DNA from: Flavobacteriales bacterium
GTDB lineage: Bacteria; Bacteroidota; Bacteroidia; Flavobacteriales; Flavobacteriaceae
Reading direction: 5' to 3'
NCBI GenBank assembly: GCA_027066995.1
Contig: JAMOMQ010000095.1
Location: 1-38,674 of the forward strand
DNA: 38,674 nucleotides
The notes under the pieces are model-generated. The model was not told the origin of the DNA. It did no database searches and was given only the letters and a program-made list of their open reading frames with translations. Position numbers and translations under genes: made by a program. Every line of letters begins with the position of its first letter. Within the stretch, counting starts at the first letter, position 1. Positions 13,994 through 26,515 of the stretch are shown piece by piece.

Positions 13994-14632
13994 TCAGATG
14001 GCAAAATAGTCGTTTTTTACCGCCCAAACAATTAATTCAGCCAAGTTACGCACTTGTGCTTTTTTATAAATGTTTGACCGGTGTGTTTCTACTGTTTTAA
14101 CACTAATAAATAAGCTTTCCGCTATTTCACCGGTGGTTTTTCCCTGACAAATAAGCTGAATGATTTCAATTTCGCGTAAGGTGAGTTGCTCTTTATTAAA
14201 ACCTTTATTTTTTACGGATTGTAAAGCTAATTTTTGCAATATTTCTTGACTAAAATAATTGCCGCCTTTAAAAACCGTTTGGATAGCTGTAGAAAGCTCG
14301 GTTTTTGAGGCGTTTTTAATAACAAATCCCTTAACACCGGCTTCAATCATCTGTGTATAATGTCCTAAATCGGAAAACATGGTTAGGGCTATAACTTTTA
14401 GATCAGGCACCAATGTCAAGGCTTTTTTGGTTGTTTCTACACCATTGATTATAGGCATATTTACATCCATCAGCACTAAATCGGGTTTATCTGTTTCAAG
14501 AAAGGTAATAAAATCTAAACCGTTTGAAGTGTCAAACACTACCTCAAATTCACTTATTTGATTGAGTACCAATATAATTCCTTCCCGAAAAATACTATGA
14601 TCATCTACTATGGCTATTTTTATTTTACACAT
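13994..14632 (-). CDS. NarL/FixJ-type response regulator
   Basis: 212 residues. An N-terminal receiver domain has the acidic pair Asp10-Asp11, the phosphorylation site Asp56 in LVLMDVNMP, a Thr in ALTMF and Lys in VIKNA. A C-terminal LuxR-type helix-turn-helix follows (LTLREIEIIQLICQGKTTGE...SVKTVETHRSNIYKK, about 147-195). It binds DNA when phosphorylated. It is encoded 9 bases after the partner kinase. The target genes are unknown, though the secreted-protein operon just upstream of the kinase is a plausible candidate by proximity. Confidence 0.93.
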   Translation of the reverse strand: MCKIKIAIVDDHSIFREGIILVLNQISEFEVVFDTSNGLDFITFLETDKPDLVLMDVNMPIINGVETTKKALTLVPDLKVIALTMFSDLGHYTQMIEAGVKGFVIKNASKTELSTAIQTVFKGGNYFSQEILQKLALQSVKNKGFNKEQLTLREIEIIQLICQGKTTGEIAESLFISVKTVETHRSNIYKKAQVRNLAELIVWAVKNDYFAI

Positions 14633-14641
14633 ACCTGATTA

Positions 14642-15910
14642 TTATGAGTAAGGAAGTATCATGGTCGCATGAAAACCTCCATTCTCGGTTGTATTATAAC
14701 TAAAACTTCCTTCAAGCGAAGCCAACCGGCTTGTTATGTTTTGTAATCCAAGACCGTTTTTTATGCCTGTTATTTTTAATTTGTCAAAGCCAATTCCATT
14801 ATCTGTATAATCAATATGTATTTGTTTATTCTGTATAGAGATATTGATATGAATGATATTGGCTTGAGCATATTTGATGGTATTGTTTATCAGTTCGGTT
14901 ACCGCCCTGTATAAGCTGAGTTCCTTTTTTATATCAAAACGAAATATGTTTTCATAAGAAAAATTAATTTTTAAATTTTTGTGAATGTTTAATTGATCTA
15001 TAAAATTTTCCAAGGCTACAATCAATCCGTTATTTTCTACTATAAGCGGGCTGATATTATGCGATATTTTGGACACATCACTAATGGCATTACCAATAAT
15101 TTTTTTTAACCTTCCTTCAATTTCTTTTTTCTTTTCCGGATTTTTTTCATCAATATAAGCTTGATAATACAAATTGATAGAGGACATAACCGGGCCTAAT
15201 CCGTCGTGTAAATCAGCTGCTATTCGTTTGCGTTCTTTTTCTTCTGCTAAAATAATATCACCTAAGGCTTTGCTTTGGATTTTTTTCTTTTCGGCAATTT
15301 CATTGAGCAAGGCTTTGTTCATTTCTTGCAAGTTTGTTGCCTGCTTTTCAAGTGTGCTGATATTTCTATTGATTTCACGCATAAAATCAATAAATACGTG
15401 ATGAATTAATACACCAATAATGATATAGCTGACAAAACGGGCAATCATACATTGTTTATAGCAAGACAAGATGCCGGTTTTGGGTATAAACTTATCATCT
15501 GTTAGGGTTAAAATGGCAACAATCAATAAAATACTGACAGAAATGCTAATCAAATAAACAAATTTTTTCTTATCAAACACATATAACAAAAAGGTGGTAC
15601 TAACCGTAAACCAAAAAACCGAAAGATCAACCAGTTTGAAAAAAAGCAGAATGATTGGAATCAACATAAAGGGAATACTCAATAACCATATTTTGAACTG
15701 TAAAGGAAGCTTTTTTTTTATAAAACTTACGATAAAAAATACAGCGGAAAGTAATGGAATGGCTATTTTAACCCAAATATTATTTGATGATGCCAATGAT
15801 AAATAGACAACATAGTTTGTTGGTAAAGTCAACAATGCAATAAACACAACATTGTGATCAATGATTGTTTCTATGATACGTCTATTCTTTAGCAAACTTA
15901 TATTTTTCAT
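14642..15910 (-). CDS. membrane sensor histidine kinase, HisKA_3 type
   Basis: 422 residues. The N-terminal half has about six transmembrane helices (roughly 20-180) with almost no extracellular domain, so the signal may be sensed in the membrane. A coiled-coil follows (about 180-225), then the dimerisation domain with ERKRIAADLHDGLGP (phospho-acceptor His235). The C-terminal ATPase domain shows ELINNTIKYA, DNGIGFD and GLGLQNI. It is the cognate kinase of the response regulator that follows. The terminator at 15972-16000 separates it from the secreted-protein operon upstream. No clear promoter was found in the 61 bases between that terminator and the start. Confidence 0.92.
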   Translation of the reverse strand: MKNISLLKNRRIIETIIDHNVVFIALLTLPTNYVVYLSLASSNNIWVKIAIPLLSAVFFIVSFIKKKLPLQFKIWLLSIPFMLIPIILLFFKLVDLSVFWFTVSTTFLLYVFDKKKFVYLISISVSILLIVAILTLTDDKFIPKTGILSCYKQCMIARFVSYIIIGVLIHHVFIDFMREINRNISTLEKQATNLQEMNKALLNEIAEKKKIQSKALGDIILAEEKERKRIAADLHDGLGPVMSSINLYYQAYIDEKNPEKKKEIEGRLKKIIGNAISDVSKISHNISPLIVENNGLIVALENFIDQLNIHKNLKINFSYENIFRFDIKKELSLYRAVTELINNTIKYAQANIIHINISIQNKQIHIDYTDNGIGFDKLKITGIKNGLGLQNITSRLASLEGSFSYNTTENGGFHATMILPYS

Positions 15911-15971: not shown

Positions 15972-16000
15972 AACAAGCCCGGAAACATCTCCGGGCTTGT
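15972..16000 (-). terminator. terminator of the secreted-protein operon
   Basis: Arms AACAAGCCCGGA (15972-15983) and TCCGGGCTTGT (15990-16000) form an 11-bp GC-rich hairpin with a 6-base loop; the downstream T run on the minus strand is short (TTTCTC). It is placed 120 bases after the stop of the T9SS protein gene and before the kinase gene. Confidence 0.65.
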
Positions 16001-16122: not shown

Positions 16123-16599
16123 CTAATATTTCTCTATTTTAAATTGTTTCATTCTCTGGCTCTTTTGATCTACAATAAGTAGTAAATAAACTCCGGTGTT
16201 AAAAGAGGACATATTCCAGGTTTTGATTTTTTGTCCGGTTGTATGAGCCAATTGTTTTCCATAGATATCAAACAAATAGATTTGATATTTTTTTTGATCC
16301 GGTAATTGTATATGTATATTTGTTTTAACCGGATTTGGATAAACACTTACGTTAGTTAAAAGCTTGTAGTCTGAAATACCAAGCGGGGTGAGTATATCCG
16401 GACCAATAAAGCCTTCTGACAAATGTGTTGTGTTCCATTCGTTTTCTTGCATTGCCATTTCTCCAATGGTATAGGTAATTTGGGTTATCCCGTTAACTTG
16501 ACTACCACCGCCACTTGAAATACTACTTTTCTTGATATTTGTTTGTGCAAAATTGACATTTACAACAAACAATGCTATAAATATAAAAATGTATTTCAT
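16123..16599 (-). CDS. small secreted protein with T9SS type A sorting domain
   Basis: 158 residues from ATG at 16599, chosen because it gives a clean signal peptide (MKYIFIFIALFVVNVNFAQ) and lies 4 bases after the preceding stop; a longer start at 16638 would overlap that gene. After the signal comes a short region (SSISSGGGSQVNGITQITYTIGE, about 22-72) found before sorting domains in many Bacteroidota proteins. The rest (about 73-158, with VYPNPVKTNIHI and SFNTGVYLLLI) is a Por secretion C-terminal sorting domain. It should cross the outer membrane by the type IX system and be attached to the surface. The passenger is very short, so it may be a partner or anchor for the protein encoded just before it. 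Confidence 0.8.
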   Translation of the reverse strand: MKYIFIFIALFVVNVNFAQTNIKKSSISSGGGSQVNGITQITYTIGEMAMQENEWNTTHLSEGFIGPDILTPLGISDYKLLTNVSVYPNPVKTNIHIQLPDQKKYQIYLFDIYGKQLAHTTGQKIKTWNMSSFNTGVYLLLIVDQKSQRMKQFKIEKY

Positions 16600-16603
16600 T
16601 GTA

Positions 16604-17863
16604 TTATTTTTTATAAACGACAAAATTGAAACTTTCATCTGATACGGCAGCTGAAGTGTTATAAGTTCTCACTTCAAAATAAGAATCATGGTTTACAACC
16701 GATATAAAGCCTAAAAACCCATAATTCATAGAAGCTATTACGGTATATTTATTTACACCTCCCGGAGAGTTATTGAATGTAACTTTGTATTTTCCGGTAC
16801 TGACTTTAGTAACCGTAAAACCTCCAGAGCTTGCTCCGTAAGAATTAAGACTACCCGATGAATAAACAGATCCGTAAATATATGCTTTCATATCGGCATC
16901 TCCTGAATCTGTTCCGTGCAATTCACCGTTTATTTTGATATAGTCATTGGCAAAATCACCGTAAATAAGCGGGTTGTCGGTGTCCGAATTGTCAATATAT
17001 AATTTGTCACTTCCGGTTTCATTGTAACCGGCATCATTACCGATAAAAACATTGTTACTTCCGGTATTGGAAAAACCGGCATTATGACCTACTGCCACGT
17101 TATTACTACCATTAATGTTGTTGTATAAAGTATTAAAACCCAAGGCAGTATTGTAACTATTTAAGTTTTGATAAATAGCTCTGTCACCTATAGCTACATT
17201 TCTGGTACCTGTTACATTATCCATCATAGCTTCAAAACCTACGGCTACATTTTTTTCGGCAGTTGTAGCATCTTGTAGTGCGCGGGTTCCAATTCCCACA
17301 TTATTACTAAATTGGTTAGTAAGGTGAAGTCCTGCACTATTTCCAATAAAAACGGCTTTCCCATCATTTTTGGCATCTGATAAATCATCAAGTTTGGTTA
17401 CATCATCAGAGACATTTTTATCCCAGTTTGTGGTATCGGGTGCCCCTTGCAAGTCGGCATAATTTCCACTAAACACATTTCCTGCTTTGTCGGCGTATTT
17501 GGCATAAGGCATATATTTTAAAGGGTTCGTTCCATAATCTTGATAGCCATTTCCGTCTTGAGTATCTATTTCAACTTTCAAATTATAGTCCATTGACCAA
17601 TCAATAGTTGAAAAATCTCCATTGACAGAGTTACCTTCTCCCAAAATAAGACTGATAATACCATTTGCATCCGTAGTAACCGATTGGGTTTCTGTATAAA
17701 TGCCGGTAGCAGCATCATCTAATAAAGTAAACCGAACATTTACCGCTTGGTTAGACAAAACATTACCATTATGGGTAATAAGGGCTTTGTAGTTAAATCC
17801 TGAGCTTTGTGCCCATAAAAAATTTGTTGATACCATCAACAATACAAATAGTAATTTTCTCAT
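16604..17863 (-). CDS. secreted repeat protein with YadA-head-like repeats
   Basis: 419 residues with a signal peptide (MRKLLFVLLMVSTNFLWAQ). Residues about 20-125 form an N-terminal domain (SSGFNYKALITHNG...DGNGYQDYG) seen in Bacteroidota fibre-like proteins. Residues about 185-300 contain at least six imperfect repeats of 16-17 residues, with cores NVGIGTRAL, NVAVGFEAM, NVAIGDRAI, NTALGFNTL, NVAVGHNAG and NVFIGNDAG. These match the left-handed beta-roll of trimeric YadA-type adhesin heads. The C-terminal about 90 residues are beta-rich (GGFTVTKVSTGKYKV...FNFVVYKK). No sorting domain, S74 peptidase or membrane anchor is visible. It is the first gene of a two-gene operon. An adhesin or surface-fibre role is inference. 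Confidence 0.75.
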   Translation of the reverse strand: MRKLLFVLLMVSTNFLWAQSSGFNYKALITHNGNVLSNQAVNVRFTLLDDAATGIYTETQSVTTDANGIISLILGEGNSVNGDFSTIDWSMDYNLKVEIDTQDGNGYQDYGTNPLKYMPYAKYADKAGNVFSGNYADLQGAPDTTNWDKNVSDDVTKLDDLSDAKNDGKAVFIGNSAGLHLTNQFSNNVGIGTRALQDATTAEKNVAVGFEAMMDNVTGTRNVAIGDRAIYQNLNSYNTALGFNTLYNNINGSNNVAVGHNAGFSNTGSNNVFIGNDAGYNETGSDKLYIDNSDTDNPLIYGDFANDYIKINGELHGTDSGDADMKAYIYGSVYSSGSLNSYGASSGGFTVTKVSTGKYKVTFNNSPGGVNKYTVIASMNYGFLGFISVVNHDSYFEVRTYNTSAAVSDESFNFVVYKK

Positions 17864-17893: not shown

Positions 17894-17924
17894 CAAAGGT
17901 ATTTTGCTGTAAGCCAGCTGTCAA
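17894..17924 (-). promoter_or_regulatory. promoter of the secreted-protein operon
   Basis: On the minus strand, TTG (17924-17922) and TACCTTTG (17901-17894) are separated by 20 bases, an exact Bacteroidota-type promoter. Transcription would start near 17888, 25 bases before the ATG. Confidence 0.7.
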
Positions 17925-24527: not shown

Positions 24528-24565
24528 CCTACCAAATAACCAGTTTTATTTAATTGTTATTTCTT

Positions 24566-26515
24566 ATGAAAAAGTTACTTATTATATCTCTTACGCTATT
24601 TAGTTTAAATAACTTTGCCCAATTTGTCGAAAAACCTTTTAAACACCTTGTTGACCGTGAACGCGCGGCCGCTCTCAAACGCTTATTAAAACAACCTTTG
24701 GCCAACACCGGCAACTACGATGTCAAATTTCACCGGCTGTATCTTATTCCCGATTTAAACAGTCGCCAGTTACACGGCACCGTCGATACTTATTTTGAAG
24801 CGGTTCAAAATCTCAATCAAATGGAATTTGATTTTTCAGACCAAATGACCGTCAATAGTGTGCTATGGCACAATCAAAATTTATCTTTTTCTCAAACATC
24901 TAACAGGTTGATTATCAACTTTCCGCAAAACATAAACGCCGGCGTATTAGACTCTGTTAAAATATCTTATCAAGGCTTGGTGCCCAACACCGGTTTAGAT
25001 TCTTATATGGTAACCTCCCACGGCAATAACGTTCCGGTAGTTTGGACGCTCTCCGAGCCTTATGGTGCCAAAGACTGGTGGCCCTGCAAACAAGATCTCA
25101 CCGACAAAGCCGATTCGGTGGAAATTAATTTACAATATCCCAAATACGATACCGGCAATAACGAAATGTATGCCGTTTCTAACGGACTGATGTCAAGCGA
25201 ACAAACTTTTACCGACTCCAACACTCAAACAGAATACAAAATAACCACTTGGAAACACCGTTACCCCATTACCGCCTATTTGGTGGCATTTGCCATAACC
25301 AATTACACCAAATTTTCTGAAACGGCGGGTATCTCCCAATCATTCCCGATTGATAACTATGTTTACCCCGAAAACTTAAACAACGCCCAAGCGCAAGCCG
25401 TTCATTTTTTACCGGTGATGAATTATTTTGAAAACACCTTTGGCCCCTATCCGTTTAACCAAGAAAAATACGGACAAATACAATTTGGCTGGGGTGGTGG
25501 CATGGAACATCAAACCGCTACATTTGTAGTCAATTACAACCGCCCTTTAATTGCCCACGAACTGGCACACCAGTGGTTTGGTGATGCCGTTACCTGCGGC
25601 TCGTGGCATGATATCTGGCTCAACGAAGGTTTTGCCACATACAGCGAAGCCCTCACTCAAGAAGCTTTGGACGGACAAACTGCTTTTGATGACTGGAAAC
25701 AATATACCAATAGCAATATCACTTATTTTCCCGCCGGATCGGTTTATGTTCAAGACACAACAGATGTTTGGCGGATTTTTGATTGGCGTTTATCTTACCA
25801 AAAAGGTGCCATGGTGCTCAATATGCTTCGTTTAAAACTTGGTGACAATCACTTTTTTCAAGGTATTAGAAACTACTTTAACCATAAAAAGTTCCAATTT
25901 GCCAAAACACCCGATTTTAAAAATGAAATGGCGACGGAAAGCGGCCTAAACCTGGACGAATTTTTTAACGACTGGATTTACGGACAAGGTTACCCAACTT
26001 ATACCATCACCGTTACCCGGACCGGCACCGGGCAATACGACATTTTAATACAGCAGAACACCTCCCACCCGTCTGTCGATTTCTTTGAAATGCCTCTGCC
26101 TTTTAAATTTACCGGCGGCAATGGACAAGTTTTTGAAACTACTTTAGACAACACCGTTAACAATCAACATTTTACGGTCAACACCGGTTTTGAAGTTACC
26201 AACGTTACTTTTGACGAACATTATGATATTGTAAAAGGCCCGACCACCTTGGAAACCATTTTAAATGTTGTGGCTCATGATGATGTCGACACTTTTAATA
26301 TGTATCCTAATCCTGCCAAAACCTTTTTGCATATAAAAAATACCGGCCATGCTCCTGTGCAATCCGTGGCAATATTTAGCCCAGACGGTCAATTAATCTT
26401 TAAAAGAAAAAGCGGTTTTGACCATATTGACATCAATAACCTTAGCAAAGGTATTTACTTGCTACAAATACAAACCGGCACAAATACTTTTACTAAAAAA
26501 CTGATCAAAGAATAA
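24566..26515 (+). CDS. M1 family metallo-aminopeptidase with T9SS sorting domain
   Basis: 649 residues from ATG at 24566, which gives a clean signal peptide (MKKLLIISLTLFSLNNFAQF); a TTG 12 bases upstream is less likely. The M1 N-terminal beta domain is followed by the substrate motif GWGGGMEHQ and the zinc site HELAHQWFGD (His331, His335) with Glu354 in NEGFATYSEAL. The C-terminal about 70 residues (MYPNPAKTFLHIKN, NNLSKGIYLLQI, FTKKLIKE) are a type A sorting domain. It is therefore a surface or secreted peptidase that trims N-terminal residues from peptides. recX follows after 25 bases on the same strand and may be co-transcribed, though the two are not functionally related. Confidence 0.93.
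   Translation: MKKLLIISLTLFSLNNFAQFVEKPFKHLVDRERAAALKRLLKQPLANTGNYDVKFHRLYLIPDLNSRQLHGTVDTYFEAVQNLNQMEFDFSDQMTVNSVLWHNQNLSFSQTSNRLIINFPQNINAGVLDSVKISYQGLVPNTGLDSYMVTSHGNNVPVVWTLSEPYGAKDWWPCKQDLTDKADSVEINLQYPKYDTGNNEMYAVSNGLMSSEQTFTDSNTQTEYKITTWKHRYPITAYLVAFAITNYTKFSETAGISQSFPIDNYVYPENLNNAQAQAVHFLPVMNYFENTFGPYPFNQEKYGQIQFGWGGGMEHQTATFVVNYNRPLIAHELAHQWFGDAVTCGSWHDIWLNEGFATYSEALTQEALDGQTAFDDWKQYTNSNITYFPAGSVYVQDTTDVWRIFDWRLSYQKGAMVLNMLRLKLGDNHFFQGIRNYFNHKKFQFAKTPDFKNEMATESGLNLDEFFNDWIYGQGYPTYTITVTRTGTGQYDILIQQNTSHPSVDFFEMPLPFKFTGGNGQVFETTLDNTVNNQHFTVNTGFEVTNVTFDEHYDIVKGPTTLETILNVVAHDDVDTFNMYPNPAKTFLHIKNTGHAPVQSVAIFSPDGQLIFKRKSGFDHIDINNLSKGIYLLQIQTGTNTFTKKLIKE

Follow-up and report, generated by a model that had tools for sequence, protein, structure and literature searches.

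The DNA that we analysed, a stretch of 38,674 nucleotides from a Flavobacteriales bacterium hereafter called the window, carries on its minus strand two neighbouring genes: one for a 419-residue fibre protein, denoted F (16604..17863, from the list of open reading frames), which protein has a Sec-type signal peptide and no anchor of its own, and one for a 158-residue surface-sorted partner, denoted T (16123..16599, from the same list and from its sorting-domain matches). The two are separated by only 4 nt (16600–16603), and both reading frames and that gap are as an earlier note on this DNA had placed them. The length of T is counted from the ATG at 16599, the mechanically delimited reading frame being of 171 residues with its start inside F. 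The source genome is a 2.34-Mb draft in 187 contigs and is 98% complete; the other reading frames near F and T in the window appear by eye to be housekeeping-like.

The single promoter that the earlier note had assigned to the pair has a candidate on the minus strand at 17894..17924, where the sequence TTG-N20-TACCTTTG, located 38 nt upstream of the F ATG, fits TAnnTTTG, the promoter form of the Bacteroidetes; that octamer, however, is common by chance, occurring about once per kb per strand across the window. Between T and the next gene, RNA folding gives a strong 12-bp hairpin on the same strand (15973..16000; -25.2 kcal/mol, z -4.3), which structure is without a T-run and receives no call in terminator prediction. 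A membrane histidine kinase (14642–15910) and a NarL-type regulator (13994–14632), both on the minus strand and both recognized by domain search, lie downstream of T as had been noted, at a spacing of 212 nt. Such a kinase-regulator pair stands directly 3' of T in two more contexts in the genus (G012 and G007), but in a further genome (G002) the pair occupies the same neighbourhood as in G007 with F and T absent, for which reason a regulatory link between those two genes and the F-T pair is only possible.

T, for its part, matches the type A sorting domain of the type IX secretion system (T9SS) across residues 86–155 (the CTD; 16135..16344, minus strand), with an E of 6.2e-12 and 46.1 bits (cut-off 27) for Por_Secre_tail (PF18962), and with 43.5 bits (cut-off 23) for TIGR04183; and the source genome contains the translocon component SprA (2,570 bits, G000:C117). 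The N-terminus of T is hydrophobic, ends on reading in FAQ, is modelled as a helix over residues 2–16, and is putatively of the Sec type. The protein had been described as mostly sorting domain, which holds for about half of its mature form; the other half, at approximately residues 19–68 (16396..16545, minus strand), proved the more telling. This module, which we denote Tn (GGG..YTIGE..QE..HLSEGFIGPD), was delimited in an alignment of 52 sequences, across which Q19, K24, G46, E47, E52, S61, E62, G63, and F64 are invariant, so that nine of the 12 invariant residues of T fall within it. No enzyme or adhesin domain of Pfam or NCBIfam was recognized in mature T. In the single-chain AlphaFold models that we computed for F and T, with alignments of the window proteins and their relatives as input, the sorting domain of T taken alone is confident (pLDDT 92–96), and Tn residues 21–60 reach only 40–50. 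A conserved segment with no fold of its own in the model would fit a stretch that binds a partner, and would likewise fit a flexible linker.

Four parts can be distinguished in F, all on the minus strand: a signal peptide (residues 1–18; 17810..17863), with cleavage before Q19 read from the sequence and a helix at residues 2–13 in the model; a conserved N-terminal beta-domain, denoted Fn (residues 19–130; 17474..17809), whose pLDDT is 88–97 in the blocks within residues 21–110; a shaft of six repeats of 16–17 residues plus a degenerate seventh (residues 188–291; 16991..17302), delimited by the repeat search and modelled at a middling pLDDT of 66–80; and a C-terminal tip (residues 310–419; 16607..16936), confident at 89–98 from residue 331. 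The six repeats (starting at residues 188, 205, 222, 238, 255, and 271) match N[VT][AGF]xG, and a count of six was reached in none of 20,000 shuffles of residues 161–300, the maximum in those shuffles being three. The repeats announced in the earlier note were accordingly found in number and length, but the strict NVAxG form appears in only three of them. That F bears no visible anchor was likewise borne out, since a reading of the sequence gave no lipobox, no sorting domain, and no C-terminal barrel. Against Pfam and NCBIfam at E ≤ 1, F had no match other than a sub-threshold GOLD at 0.027, and in particular no YadA-type head repeat of Pfam was found in the window protein at that threshold. 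The description of F as YadA-head-like applies to the repeats of certain relatives (L099, YadA_head at 1.8e-28), while the architecture is rather that of a protein resembling the mosaic adhesive trimer (MAT) fibres or phage tail fibres.

The phage resemblance concerns the distal portion of the molecule. Residues 152–333 match by sequence the tail-spike and tail-fibre genes of phages. F matches 63 phage records in all, and the matches among the 12 of these 63 that were listed all start at residue 152 or beyond, leaving Fn uncovered. A Foldseek comparison with viral models returned cyanophage tail-fibre proteins over 94–99 columns (rmsd 1.6–2.4, 16–26% identity), and from the length of that match and the confidence of the model we infer that it sits at the C-terminal tip, which end is modelled as a beta-domain of only some 90 residues and is homologous in those relatives that have the same ending. 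Among solved structures, shaft and tip align with beta-solenoid proteins such as the tailspike of phage phiAB6 (5js4), a weak match with a Z of 9.0 at an rmsd of 14.2 over 244 residues, and the top row of the same search was a beta-helical acetyltransferase with a Z of 9.3, which score renders the tailspike match unspecific. A fold search with Fn gave only generic beta-sandwich matches (Z 6–7), which we did not use, and a sequence search for solved relatives of F gave none below an E of 0.07.

The ancestry of Fn could be established at the level of the family. The NCBI model NF053851 (Bdello_MAT_N), which describes the N-domain of the MAT fibres of Bdellovibrio, matches 50 of the 54 rows of our alignment A6 at E ≤ 0.01, with a best value of 2.4e-16. 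A6 comprises F and 53 relatives or their Fn pieces: the window F, 26 of the 29 whole Fn-plus-tip proteins shorter than 830 residues, and 27 Fn fragments; L112, L140, and one chain of L108 were left out as whole proteins (an Fn piece of that last chain having entered), and a previous alignment, A5, was discarded because tip fragments had fallen onto the N-domain. The window F is not among the 50 matching rows and has no match to NF053851 at E ≤ 10, the connection being made through its relatives: the paralogue of F at C181 in the source genome matches the model at 3.9e-5, and the window F finds, over residues 3–345 and at 3.6e-23, the F of G027:C88 (L093), which protein in turn matches the model at 2.9e-10. 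Within a sample of 198 genomes of the Bacteroidota, the Fn profile occurs in 53 and NF053851 in 55, with 52 common to both, and in none of the 198 is the curated cut-off of 60 bits passed. On this sequence evidence the Fn family is homologous to the Bdellovibrio MAT N-domain at scores below the NCBI cut-off; and because that homology holds for the family, F is a MAT-like fibre by the descent of its N-domain, though by the NCBI cut-off no member of the class. The complete Fn proteins in the neighbourhoods of T matches range from 311 to 1,132 residues, and the tips behind Fn vary—the Fc type, S74 (L182), and others—with tip distances that do not track those of Fn (r 0.03, 25 pairs). Fn proteins therefore display the mosaic trait of a constant N-domain with variable C-terminal tips.

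The same two genes stand together well beyond the window. In the source genome, four T genes and four F genes are found on the same four contigs, the F of one of these (C33) being cut by the contig end. A search of 60 relatives yielded 32 full-length T matches (E ≤ 3e-17), those four included, and 29 of the 31 outside the window have an Fn reading frame no more than 440 nt away on the same strand, some of these frames being cut by a contig end; the remaining two are a T at the edge of a contig and one whose F is 1.6 kb distant. One genome of the window's genus (G003) has 42 sorting-domain matches, yet neither F nor a full-length T. A wider set of named loci, the best 80 of 107, came from a scan with alignment A3, A1 being too diverse for that purpose; these loci overlap the genomes of the 31 T matches, and the two counts are consequently not independent. 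The loci come mostly from Flavobacteriales bins, and also from Winogradskyella, Psychroserpens, Xanthomarina, and Kordia, with some in bins filed as Bacteroidales or Chlorobiota, and the closest T among these best 80 belongs to bins of the Flavobacteriales, Flavobacteriaceae. An Fn reading frame lies on the same strand within 547 nt in 68 of the best 80 loci, and when counted per T reading frame in that set, 71 of 83 are paired, at a median gap of 15 nt. As to the others, a cut or split F adjoins in five (L124 and L151 by profile; L156, L164, and L171 by eye), two are at contig edges, and in five more (L146, L148, L149, L157, and L158) F is 2–5 kb away. F is upstream in 51 of the 71 pairs and T in the rest, so that the order of the genes is free.

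Fn and Tn covary only weakly (r 0.26 over 44 pairs, equalled in 4 of 2,000 permutations), with 0.16 between Fn and the CTD (84 of 2,000); and among the 25 pairs whose tips are of one type no covariation of Fn and Tn was seen (0.12, 249 of 2,000). The set consisted of 48 pairs thinned to 44 by near-identity, and admitted T proteins only if they had a type A domain and fewer than 240 residues.

The sample of 198 genomes gave the same picture at the level of the phylum. The profiles used there, A7 for Fn and A10 for Tn, both include the window sequence and rows from G013, so that matches in those genomes are not independent. The Tn profile matched 32 places in 21 genomes, and a fibre gene, recognized by Fn or by the MAT_N model, was present in 56. 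Every one of the 21 Tn genomes has such a gene (20 by Fn and one by MAT_N only), compared with 35 of the 177 others (Fisher P 1.2e-13, relatedness uncorrected), and 31 of the 32 Tn matches have an Fn or MAT_N match at a distance of 341–2,114 nt. With the source genome and G013 removed, which contributors to the profiles account for seven of the 32, the figure is 24 of 25, and the lone exceptional Tn adjoins an apparent broken fibre gene. The pattern that would have spoken against a pairing, that of homologues regularly occurring apart, was thus not seen in any of the three surveys, a fibre gene being near 29 of 31, 68 of 80, and 31 of 32 T or Tn matches; and the search of genome neighbourhoods that the earlier note had proposed found the partners close together nearly wherever T was found and in most of the F loci inspected, remote members of the phylum included. 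The partnership of F and T is well supported across the Bacteroidota. SprA, for its part, is present in all 56 genomes with a fibre gene, as against 154 of the 198 overall; but of the 20 genomes without SprA that were listed (of 44), 19 come from a single family, and the association of SprA with F is therefore confounded by phylogeny.

The reverse question, what stands beside an F that has no detected T, was addressed at 20 F loci without a Tn match that were picked by hand and are not a random sample. A T-like neighbour is present at 15, in 12 instances by a Tn profile (E < 0.1 within that small set, one of the neighbours being separated from F by a gene) and in three by a sorting domain and by eye; at the other five the profile found no T-like neighbour, and two of these five adjoin a gene with a type B sorting domain. 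At nine further, mostly deeper, F loci (L222–L230), four have a short sorting-domain partner, one a protein that is Tn-like by eye, and one an F that follows a long sorting-domain gene, the last three being without a partner. In the genome G047, some part of F is matched at least 37 times (30 of 114 first-look candidates having been scored), and there is a single gene with a type A sorting domain (E ≤ 0.001), which gene is T-like and does not lie beside the fibres inspected.

The anchor itself proved to be exchangeable. Most of the T proteins observed have the type A domain; in L204 and L213, however, a Tn recognized by profile is joined to a type B sorting domain (TIGR04131, 2.9e-22 and 5.5e-13, respectively), and L225 has a protein, Tn-like by eye, with a choice-of-anchor U domain and a hydrophobic C-terminal tail. 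Seventeen T proteins, among them some of Winogradskyella, Psychroserpens, and Kordia, lack the CTD; 14 of these are followed, at no more than 164 nt, by a separate gene for a sorting domain, and the three without such a gene are two Kordia loci and L165, where the stretch ends soon afterwards. For the three-gene variant we considered a dockerin-cohesin bridge, which idea the Pfam and PDB sequence profiles left unsupported: DxNxDG-like motifs can be discerned by eye, but the sorting domain is the only Pfam match above the cut-off, the best PDB sequence profile is an aspartic proteinase at 0.025, and the third protein has PDB matches at E < 0.01 only at its sorting-domain end. The persistence of Tn next to the fibre under a changing anchor is our best argument that what counts for the fibre would be Tn, and not the anchor, with the sorting domain serving only to deliver Tn to the surface.

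Taking these results together, we propose, at a probability of roughly 0.6, that F and T constitute a two-gene surface-fibre module of the Bacteroidota in which T is the foot that holds a MAT-like fibre through the docking of Tn on Fn. The homology of Fn to the MAT N-domain supplies a reason why the fibre should need a partner at the surface. F would be a MAT-like fibre, probably trimeric, with Fn nearest the cell, a shaft that varies, and an exchangeable tip of the phage-tail kind, which tip would probably bind glycans or other surfaces. T would cross the outer membrane through the T9SS by means of its sorting domain, which would then be cut off, leaving a surface-attached Tn module of about 50–65 residues; and that module would dock on Fn, so that the fibre would be held on the cell with its tip outward. 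Type A sorting domains are known to direct T9SS export and to be cleaved, and in P. gingivalis the cargo becomes attached to anionic LPS. For the pair itself, we infer the binding of Tn to Fn, the trimer, the attachment to the surface, and the adhesin function.

The explanation that competes best with this module, though we consider it unlikely, is that T acts mainly as an export ticket, binding F in the periplasm so that F passes SprA in trans as a passenger, its role in retention being secondary. F has a Sec-type N-terminus, yet no known signal for export across the outer membrane; the layout of F and T implies co-transcription; SprA is absent from no fibre-bearing genome of the sample; and SprA, according to PMC7712824, is wide enough for folded proteins. 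Conversely, its size or its stiffness may bar a long fibre trimer from that channel, and the MATs of Bdellovibrio reach the surface (PMC10769870), yet the T9SS is confined to the Bacteroidetes (PMC7906972). The Tn protein in some lineages, moreover, itself lacks a sorting domain. Far less probable is a role of T as an assembly factor—a chaperone or a trimer-nucleating peptide that would be absent from the final fibre—for which the small size of T and the strong conservation of the apparently unstructured Tn segment can be invoked, along with the fact that phage tail fibres often have such helpers; but there is little reason for a helper to bear a surface sorting domain, and several lineages have exchanged that domain for a different means of anchoring instead of losing it. 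About equally improbable, or slightly more so, is the idea that F and T are independent secreted proteins with only their regulation in common: an operon may for some time retain genes that are unrelated, but the linkage here is phylum-wide, occurs in both gene orders, and is matched by the absence of both F and a full-length T from G003. Finally, we reject as very improbable both a trimeric autotransporter of the YadA kind, which the YadA_head repeats of L099 would favour, since F has no C-terminal barrel in its sequence or in its model and no anchor match in Pfam or NCBIfam, and, as the main reading, a prophage remnant, which the phage-like shaft and tip would favour, since none of the 12 of 63 phage matches listed covers Fn and the neighbours in the window are by eye housekeeping-like.

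Returning to the proposed module, we compared its parts with known systems. T resembles the T9SS cargo of type A (TIGR04183 and PF18962) in having the domain above the cut-off in a genome with SprA, but differs in that its mature portion amounts to a very small conserved module and is linked to a fibre gene. In P. gingivalis the Mfa1 fimbria, like F, is associated with a T9SS-sorted protein, Mfa5, although we know of no resemblance between Mfa5 and T. Mfa5 is, in the available text of PMC7712824, a T9SS cargo of 1,226–1,288 residues with a vWA domain. The same text presents PorA of Porphyromonas gingivalis, which is, like T, a small surface protein with a sorting domain, but which, unlike T, has a FimH-like N-domain, a signalling role, 246 residues, and, in that account, no fibre partner. 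The trimeric autotransporters of the YadA type share their head-repeat type with some F relatives, but their membrane barrel was not found in F and the order of the parts differs. The MAT fibres of Bdellovibrio bacteriovorus (Caulton et al., 2024, PMC10769870) have the N-domain that is homologous to Fn; the Discussion of that article leaves open which surface element binds the N-domain and refers to its supplements for the MATs of other bacteria, the stem "bacteroid" is absent from its main text, and with respect to the account given there a T9SS partner of the fibre is new. The open-access literature that we searched, subscription papers and preprints lying largely outside it, yielded among the records listed no T9SS partner of such fibres, and none is described in the available text of PMC9950754, PMC10202324, or PMC10994853. 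What is known, within that literature, is the fibre class and the sorting domain; what is new to it is the pairing, the Tn module, and the exchangeable anchors.

A more general possibility, which we advance only tentatively, is that the Bacteroidota share a display system in which a common Tn adaptor, exported by the T9SS or by another anchor, captures N-domains of the MAT type and may also export the fibre in trans. Should that be so, the T9SS would have a cargo that itself carries no sorting domain; in genomes such as G047 a single adaptor would serve many different fibres; the fibre repertoire could grow by the copying of the fibre gene alone; and the Bacteroidota would have an ancient route for displaying phage-tail-like fibres.

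For the two-gene module itself, the linkage of F and T offers a short conserved candidate for the holder of a MAT fibre, in another phylum than that of Bdellovibrio, and the question of the partner of the MAT N-domain becomes testable through this pair. If the module is as we propose, a function would be given to recurrent small genes that are known only by their T9SS sorting domain, a sorting signal could be seen to serve a partner protein, and phage-like receptor-binding tips would be tied to the surface biology of the Bacteroidota.

In three genomic contexts, T, the partner protein with the sorting domain, is followed by a kinase-regulator pair of one family; the pairs of the window (13994-15910) and of loci L218, L219 and L220 all belong to that family. 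In G002 (L220) the pair stands in the same neighbourhood as in G007, a second genome of the genus, but without the fibre protein F and T; the two-gene F-T module shows an apparent presence/absence between the two genomes. Elsewhere in the window (24554-26515), a secreted aminopeptidase, M1-type by eye, bears a type A sorting domain and is a T9SS cargo unrelated to F-T.

In the distant family f36, the T-F pair was observed at L198, L199, L207, L208, L209 and L217, with one match per genome to Fn, the conserved N-terminal domain of F. The pair there lies close to rlpA-like, rhomboid-protease-like and serC-like genes (identities by eye), the rlpA-like gene not being seen near it in L217; this position is possibly an ancestral fixed place.

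Other arrangements were also encountered. At L090 (G001:C15), about 1.6 kb separate T from F. At L225 (G166), a protein resembling by eye Tn, the conserved module of T, carries a choice-of-anchor U domain and a hydrophobic C-terminus, and adjoins two short Fn proteins, each of fewer than 290 aa. A three-gene variant—present at L154, L161, L170, L172, L176, L177, L180 and others—begins with the fibre; a Tn protein with about 240 additional residues and DxNxDG-like motifs comes second, and the sorting domain is on a third, separate protein of about 264 aa. The S74 tip of its fibre was checked in L182 only.

Finally, in genome G047 parts of F are matched at least 37 times, and the sole type A sorting-domain gene there encodes a T-like protein (L185:5690-6253); this single adaptor may serve many fibres.
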